A DNA stretch of 61,784 bases, taken from contig DUML01000099.1 of NCBI GenBank assembly GCA_012839895.1, positions 1-61,784 on the forward strand, given 5' to 3'. A program made the translations under genes and the position numbers. The stretch's first letter is position 1; every line of letters begins with the position of its first letter. The notes below the pieces were generated by a model that saw only the letters and a program-made list of their open reading frames with translations, searched no databases and had not been told where the DNA came from. The stretch is from Peptococcaceae bacterium (lineage in GTDB: Bacteria; Bacillota; Desulfitobacteriia; Desulfitobacteriales; Syntrophobotulaceae). Below, one piece after another: positions 27,215-28,581 of this stretch.

Positions 27215-27895
27215 TCAAGATGGCCACCATAAGAAAAGTTTCTGGGTAGACTTCAATTCTTCTATGAGCTGCTTGCGGAACTGAGCCTCATCTTCCTGGG
27301 GTGGCGCTATTTTCATTACTTTGTCCACAATTGCCTGACAAACCTTATCCACTTCTCCGCTTTCCTCTAACTTAGTAAAAGCAAGCTCCAACCAATCGAA
27401 GCCGGCCCCTATTATGGAGAAAGGAGCAATTTTTTCTATACTCCGCAGTTCACTTATCAGCTTGCCATTGCTGAGATTATAATTTTCGCCGTTAGTCTGC
27501 ATCGTCCTGAGAATGGCATACTGCTCATTTCCTTTAATGATCCCCAAGCGCTTATGCTTTTGATCAAAATCACAGATAAAAGTAAAATATCCCCTGGGTA
27601 AACCTGCTTGTATTTCCTGCATGAAGGTATCGCTGATCTTAGGTATTTCGAAGCCGTGAACATATTTTTCATTGCCTTTTTTATCATAAGCAAGGAGCTG
27701 CAGCACTGAATGTTTCGCTTTTTCCCAAATAAAATTACTGACTTCTTCCGAGAATTTAAATTCTTCCGCCATAGCTTTAAAATGTTTGCCTTTGACCAAT
27801 TTGTTTCTAAGCCACTCATAAATATAATAGCCAAGTAGGGCAGCCATAGCCCAGACGAATCCTGTGATAATTATTTTCAAATTATCAACTCCCAA
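27215..27895 (-). CDS. Unknown membrane-anchored protein
   Basis: The protein has about 226 residues. An N-terminal membrane helix (IIITGFVWAMAALLGYYIY) is followed by a soluble domain rich in aromatic residues (GLPRGYFTFICDFDQKHKRLG) and a helical C-terminal third (KVCQAIVDKVMKIAPPQ). The start may be TTG 27895 or TTG 27880; a GGGAGTTGGGAGTT repeat lies across the site. I recognise no family. The long upstream region contains a structured, terminator-like RNA element on the same strand, which may control this gene. Confidence 0.55.
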   Translation of the reverse strand: MGVDNLKIIITGFVWAMAALLGYYIYEWLRNKLVKGKHFKAMAEEFKFSEEVSNFIWEKAKHSVLQLLAYDKKGNEKYVHGFEIPKISDTFMQEIQAGLPRGYFTFICDFDQKHKRLGIIKGNEQYAILRTMQTNGENYNLSNGKLISELRSIEKIAPFSIIGAGFDWLELAFTKLEESGEVDKVCQAIVDKVMKIAPPQEDEAQFRKQLIEELKSTQKLFLWWPS

Positions 27896-28082
27896 CTCCC
27901 AAATAAAATTTGCTTTTTCATAAAAAACTAGGATTAATGCTATTATTTATCATTTTATCTTTATCCAGAGAACTTAGTCAATTTAATAATTTTTTTCTTG
28001 AAAAAAGCCAAGAACCAAACAAAAAAACTTAGAAAACCAAAAGAAGCCAAAAAATACTGAAAAAAGTGCAGAAAAACTAAGA

Positions 28083-28195
28083 TACCCGGCAACTTAACTG
28101 CCGGGTACTTGCACCGCTACAGGGCGGTGAGCCTTTGAGAAGGGTTATTGACCTTTCGGTATTTCCCCTATCTCCATTCTTATTGTTTTTCGAGA
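28083..28195 (-). ncRNA. Putative structured leader or attenuator RNA
   Basis: Read on the minus strand, four hairpins follow each other: ACC-GAAA-GGT, CCTT-CTCA-AAGG, ACCGC-CCTGTA-GCGGT, and a strong 9-bp stem TACCCGGCA/TGCCGGGTA followed by CTTAGTTTTTC. The last is terminator-like. The unknown gene at 27895 lies about 190 bases downstream on the same strand, so the element could be its riboswitch or attenuator. I cannot match it to a known class. Confidence 0.4.
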
Positions 28196-28359
28196 CAAAA
28201 AAATTATTCTTGACTCTCCTAGTAAATTCTTGAAATTTATCCAGCACAAAGGTTCTCGCCAAAGAATTAAAAAGCTATGTTTTCTTGCGCCTTTTCTTTG
28301 AAATTTAGCTTTAATAGTCGTATAATAAGCCTAAGATTCAATTGTCAAGGGGGGTCTTT

Positions 28360-28581
28360 ATGGCTTTATGGCAAAAGGGTATTGATGATCCGGATATTAA
28401 GATAAGACGTTATCACTGCCCTGAGTGTGGGGAGTACTCACTGCATATTAAATACGAATCATTTGCGGAGTGTGAAAACGGCTGTTTTCTTACGGATTCA
28501 TCTGTAATTGATAAACTTATTGAGAGCAAAGATTATAAGGGAGTATTTCAAGAGGACGAATTGAAATACAATTTTATTTAA
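28360..28581 (+). CDS. Small zinc-ribbon-like protein
   Basis: The 73-residue cytoplasmic protein starts at ATG 28360 after CAAGGGGGG; an in-frame ATG 18 bases earlier is less well placed. Two Cys groups, HCPECGEY and ECENGC, are separated by about 16 residues and look like a zinc ribbon. The rest is acidic and helical (IDKLIESKDYKGVFQEDEL). No family recognised. It precedes a diguanylate cyclase by 35 bases and may be co-transcribed with it. Confidence 0.6.
   Translation: MALWQKGIDDPDIKIRRYHCPECGEYSLHIKYESFAECENGCFLTDSSVIDKLIESKDYKGVFQEDELKYNFI

Follow-up and report, generated by a model that had tools for sequence, protein, structure and literature searches.

A GC-rich block on the minus strand of the 61,784-nucleotide stretch of Peptococcaceae DNA analysed here (the window) is not a plain terminator; its RNA structure is conserved, and we consider it rather probable that a small, structured noncoding RNA of about 104 nucleotides is encoded there as a gene in its own right, with a predicted SigG/SigF-type promoter of its own and a terminator-like hairpin at its end. 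The predicted RNA occupies 28072..28175 (minus strand), a conserved block running from the start of its first helix to a T-run, with the 5′ end placed by the promoter spacing and the 3′ end by the terminator-like stem. A sequence-only reading of this DNA had described four minus-strand hairpins, including a GAAA loop and a strong terminator-like stem, in a GC-rich block within an AT-rich gap about 190 bases ahead of an unknown gene at 27215. This description is borne out: 28083-28168 is 55% GC, against 25% in the flank on the gene side and 30% in the other flank, and about 187 bases separate the end of the last stem from the start of the gene. The extent that it gave, 28083-28195, holds for the RNA only in part, as 28176-28195 belongs to the putative promoter, and the 5′ end of the RNA is put near 28175 because of the conservation and the promoter layout. 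The gene at 27215 encodes a DUF4253 protein (PF14062), and the proposal that the block is its riboswitch or attenuator is not upheld, since DUF4253 is the next gene in only four of 15 copies and promoter-like boxes precede the RNA itself.

Structure and covariation of the RNA

The minus strand of 28072-28175 folds into four helices, P1, P2, P3 and the terminator-like P4. The folding energy of 28060-28215 (minus strand) is −50.8 kcal/mol vs. −33.9 ± 3.6 kcal/mol for dinucleotide shuffles (z = −4.70), a value equalled by none of 200 shuffles. The plus strand comes close to this (z = −4.43) because the stems are palindromic, and the minus strand is preferred as the RNA because of G-U pairs: standard pairs fill 355 of 375 pair cells on the minus strand, 34 cells being G-U, and 330 of 375 when the complement is read as RNA.

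In the RNAalifold consensus, P1 (28137..28175, minus strand) pairs GGAGATAGGGG with CCCTTCTC and has an A-rich internal loop; 88% of its cells are paired, and three of its eight pairs have changes on both sides. The inner hairpin P2 (ACCGAAAGGT, 28151..28160, minus strand), ACC-GAAA-GGT with a GNAA-type loop, is paired in 100% of cells, with the first pair covarying from A-U to G-C. It is followed by an invariant core (28112..28136, minus strand), consisting of a single-stranded AAAGG and then hairpin P3 (CACCGCCCTGTAGCGGTG, 28112..28129, minus strand), and CCGCCCTG is unchanged in all 14 rows of the alignment. P4 (28082..28108, minus strand) is a terminator-like hairpin, GTACCCGGCAGTTAAGTTGCCGGGTAT, with a 12-pair stem followed by CTTAGTTTTT, and changes on both sides occur in five of its 11 consensus pairs. 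The window copy thus resembles an intrinsic terminator, with its GC-rich stem and U-tract, but a strong U-tract lies 3′ of the last stem in only six of the 14 strong copies, and one copy (G003) keeps the 5′ half and has no last stem. The strong U-tract (28072-28081 in the window) is seen in all four copies flanked by DUF4253 genes and in G009 and G015; it is weak in the remaining eight, and in seven of these eight the next gene is a convergent MFS gene.

The covariation check that the sequence-only reading had proposed gave a clear result. The consensus holds 27 pairs in the four helices, 10 of which show compensatory changes, with 21 cells altered on both sides, and neither number was matched in any of 500 shuffles. 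When pairing partners were slid along the alignment, pairing fell from 94.7% to 36-50%, a test biased in favor of the consensus structure because this was derived from the same alignment. The divergent copy in Syntrophobotulus glycolicus has a different first helix and retains AAAGG, CCGCUCUGUUGCGG and a GCCGGG stem, its core reading AAAGG-CCGCUCUGUUGCGG. That the block is a stand-alone structured RNA gene is a well supported prediction.

Distribution among genomes

At E < 1e-13, a DNA search of 100 genomes matched the genome of the window and 13 others, all from the same family. Strong copies are thus present in 14 of the family's 25 genomes, and Dehalobacter restrictus is one of its members. 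A covariance model built from these 14 copies recovered the same 14 at E < 1e-18 among 73 genomes of the order, together with the divergent S. glycolicus copy (G007) at 3.9e-5. In a 398-genome sample of the phylum, the model gave no convincing score outside the family, though both large covariance-model searches used stricter filters, with which weak matches can be lost. A scan of 84,980 species genomes for the core pattern found 115 stretches, about 90 chance matches being expected from base composition by our own estimate; the covariance model scored strongly in six of 80 of these stretches and in none of the other 35 (best 25.7 bits). The six confirmed stretches lie on Peptococcaceae or Gracilibacter contigs and appear to correspond to family members already found. 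The same scan gave no Dehalobacter records, and near records may be omitted from that collection. A search of plasmids and phages gave a single match of 40 nt, in a Spiroplasma plasmid, and none in phages.

Weak model matches outside the family (G045, G055, G064, G054, G126, G377, G354, and G202) were rejected. The alignments of the first six cover mainly the terminator-like stem and lack the invariant core, and we attribute such weak matches to the recurrence of terminator-like stems at unrelated loci. Stems of the GCCGGG type or similar occur at such loci in these and in other genomes (L055, L056, L062, L063, and L073). Within the family, a second weak match in G023 (L061, C144:76008-76114, 21.7 bits) was also set aside, as the terminator stem is missing; this locus in a genome of genus g3 carries AAGGCAAUCCGCCC...GCGG and may be a decayed paralogue or a chance resemblance. 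In genus g11, the covariance model did not find the RNA genome-wide in any of the three genomes, and it was likewise not found near the Mur ligase gene (L070, L071, and L072, the last beginning 568 bases from the gene). The best reading of these searches is that the RNA is new and restricted to one family.

A putative forespore-type promoter

Directly before the first helix, all 14 strong copies carry GNATA-N17/18-NNNNNTA, while the other upstream DNA has diverged. In the window, the putative −35 element is GAATA (28205..28209, minus strand), the GNATA lying at −35/−36 of the first helix in 14/14 strong copies, and the −10 element, 17 nt past it, is AACAATA (28181..28187, minus strand), with NNNNNTA again in 14/14. 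The upstream regions of the copies align without gaps. For scoring, we took the SigG consensus to be GNATR, a spacer of 17-18 and CATNNTA, with weights of our own, and the distance from the best site to the first helix was 35 or 36 bases in all 14 strong copies. In AT-rich DNA, 0.24% of positions reach such a score. For single copies, the P-value against shuffles was 0 in two and 0.03-0.14 in the other 12, so that most single matches are not significant and it is their fixed position that makes the case. In a comparison of 12 lineages, from which three near-identical Dehalobacter-like rows were left out, the fixed −35 letters have a pairwise identity of 0.96 and the 35 nt above them one of 0.32. 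In S. glycolicus, the top-scoring site is elsewhere, and GTATT-N17-AAAAATA can be seen by eye at the shared position.

Promoters of small acid-soluble protein (SASP, ssp) genes, which are SigG-dependent in Bacillus, offer a comparison in the same genomes. Of 30 loci given, 27 were scored, and 26 of these share the layout seen before the RNA, 59-79 bases upstream of the start, one of the 26 scoring poorly. These promoters resemble the boxes before the RNA in their elements (GAGTA/GTTTA/GTATT, 17-18 nt, AATAATA/AAAACTA), but they drive protein genes, and the RNA has GNATA at −35. Many SASP genes of the family (L076-L101) also have a long conserved leader like AATAATAAGAACGACTCCCAAACAAA together with an upstream CAATTACCTGAGTAA, conservation beyond what a promoter needs, which may represent a regulator site or a leader element. 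From these layouts, the presence of a putative forespore-type promoter before the RNA appears fairly well supported.

The RNA might instead stand alone under a vegetative or mother-cell promoter and have no tie to the forespore, which we regard as rather unlikely, though it survives better than the other alternatives. Some −10 boxes, AATAATA and TATAATA, are also SigA-like, and several −35 boxes, GAATATT or GCATATT, are near what we take to be the SigE −35. However, SigA-like sites are scattered and none lies at a common position across the copies, and the fixed GNATA occupies the place of TTGACA; as for SigE, the TA at −10 positions 6-7 in 14/14 copies suits SigG/SigF better, by the consensus as we presume it to be. 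The same alternative would also gain from the weakness of co-occurrence at the genus level. Among the 25 family genomes, SigG was above cut-off in 20, SigF in 18 and SASP in 20, and the RNA is present in 15 of 20 SigG-positive and none of five SigG-negative genomes, a pattern made of few independent events. The five negatives all belong to one genus (g5), which is without SigG, SASP and the RNA, and a second genus (g11) accounts for three of the five genomes that have SigG but not the RNA, so that the co-occurrence may reflect one or two events. In the other two, the Mur ligase locus next to which the RNA usually lies is absent (G001) or the contig stops inside the Mur ligase gene (G006). The pattern fits a spore RNA, on these few events.

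Genomic context and the DUF4253 gene

The locus of the RNA is conserved on one side. In 14 of 15 copies, the S. glycolicus copy among them, it adjoins a Mur ligase gene oriented away from the RNA, the exception (G008) lying at a contig end. On the other side, the next gene varies: DUF4253 in four of 15 copies (the window, G008, G011, and G005), a CoA-binding protein in two (G015 and G007, the latter by translation likeness), DUF378 in one (G021), and an opposite-strand gene in eight, MFS in seven of them (G014, G017, G019, G023, G002, G012, and G003) and another gene in G009. Diverging from the RNA in the window is a gene for a 79-aa cysteine-containing, zinc-ribbon-like protein (28342-28581, plus strand; MALWQKGIDDPDIKIRRYHCPECG...), relatives of which also occur near the RNA in G011, G009, G015 and S. 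glycolicus (L069 5639-5944).

The downstream DUF4253 gene (27215..27895, minus strand; 226-aa ORF; PF14062, E 3.9e-13), which we do not count as part of the RNA gene, nevertheless raises an alternative in which the block is a cis-acting leader, a riboswitch or attenuator, with transcription starting near 28175 and ending early at the last hairpin unless a signal opens it. The shared strand, the 187-base spacing, and the strong U-tract of every DUF4253-flanked copy speak for this, as does the finding that a DUF4253 protein occurs in only four of the 61 genomes searched, each time adjoining the RNA. This co-location favors some link to the gene, or else loss of the gene elsewhere. A leader function is improbable in our view, however: the gene is not next in 11 of 15 copies, an opposing gene is next in eight, and a separate promoter-like site for DUF4253 lies at 27981-27952. 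No Rfam class matches the block either. In a search of the whole window against Rfam 15, the sole gathering-level match was a tRNA, and the block alone (E up to 10) gave chance matches only (best E 0.35). The sequence-only reading, too, had failed to match it to eight riboswitch classes, TPP, SAM and T-box among them. Terminating riboswitches and attenuators similarly combine a structured domain with a terminator-like hairpin downstream, but here no gene or pathway is consistently downstream across the 15 copies and no known aptamer class in Rfam was matched, and membership of this class is not supported.

Two further alternatives are very remote. One takes the block for a mere transcription terminator, maybe bidirectional between convergent genes, whose sequence is kept by common descent; a convergent MFS gene does end near the hairpin in seven of 15 copies, and GCCGGG-type stems recur at unrelated loci, but the invariant part is P2/P3 with AAGG rather than the terminator stem, the promoter boxes are conserved, and the G003 copy keeps its 5′ half without the last stem. 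A plain terminator with unconserved preceding hairpins, which the sequence-only reading had named as the outcome that would overturn it, fails because those hairpins are the best conserved part. The other, a short peptide gene with the frame GK(Y/C)RK(V/A)NN..RL(S/T)AL* across P1-P3, can point to a frame open in 11 of 14 copies and to an in-frame ATG in three (G011, G014, and G019) or TTG in two (G017 and G023), but the window (with TAG directly before the frame) and eight other copies have no in-frame start, indels break the frame in G008 and G021, a stop interrupts it in G005, it is not seen in G007, and a ribosome binding site would have no room. With an in-frame start in five of 14 copies and a broken frame in three of 14, a conserved coding frame was rejected, and the changes within it are explained by base-pair covariation.

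Comparison with forespore RNAs of Bacillus

We return to the reading that we prefer, a small RNA gene with its own forespore-type promoter, for which precedents exist. Membership in the CsfG family (ylbH, RF00516) was rejected, as none of 25 family genomes exceeded the cut-off and, among the matches listed, none was at the locus. The neighbors of the CsfG gene are ylbG-ylbH, vs. Mur ligase and MFS genes here. As summarized in one account, CsfG (Rfam ylbH, RF00516) of Bacillus is a stand-alone small RNA under SigF/SigG and restricted to the forespore (PMC9147052). The RNA described here is likewise small and, as predicted, stand-alone, and its forespore expression would follow from the promoter layout. 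The same source presents Bvs196 of Bacillus velezensis as an independently transcribed forespore RNA that is mainly SigG-dependent, has a stable conserved structure and influences spore resistance (PMC9147052). Bvs196 is 294 nt long in Bacillus vs. about 104 nt here, and the two are likened by description, not by sequence. Among the papers listed for forespore small RNAs, csfG, DUF4253, sporulation or noncoding RNA in Dehalobacter, the family itself and Peptococcaceae structured RNAs, none names this RNA.

Possible function and implications

The preferred reading draws on the conserved structure and locus, the variable identity of the next gene, the promoter-like boxes and the restriction of the RNA to genomes that have SigG and SASP genes. 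In this model, transcription of the RNA would take place in the forespore and begin at a dedicated promoter of the SigG/SigF (forespore sigma factor) type, and the transcript would end at the terminator-like hairpin P4; the RNA is probably switched on during spore formation. It might then act in trans, with the exposed invariant AAGG and the YCUGUW hairpin loop conceivably pairing with forespore mRNAs, or, alternatively, an RNA-binding protein might hold the AAGG and the YCUGUW loop. SASP mRNAs were rejected as targets, as a duplex test on the mRNA starts found no excess pairing over shuffles (mean z −0.27 over the pairs listed). More tentatively, and with appreciable doubt, we propose a new class of forespore RNA confined to the clostridial family of Dehalobacter, Syntrophobotulus and their relatives, in which the invariant AAGG/CCGCYCUGUWGCGG hairpin may capture a protein or an mRNA during spore maturation.

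To our knowledge, few small RNAs acting late in sporulation are known, and those that we met for comparison, CsfG and Bvs196, are both from Bacillus. The present analysis would add a candidate, with a promoter, a structure, a core motif and a phyletic range, from a clostridial family that includes the organohalide-respiring Dehalobacter. Since Dehalobacter has kept a putative forespore-type promoter, one may also ask whether these bacteria form spores, and the candidate can be tested in the spore-forming Syntrophobotulus glycolicus.
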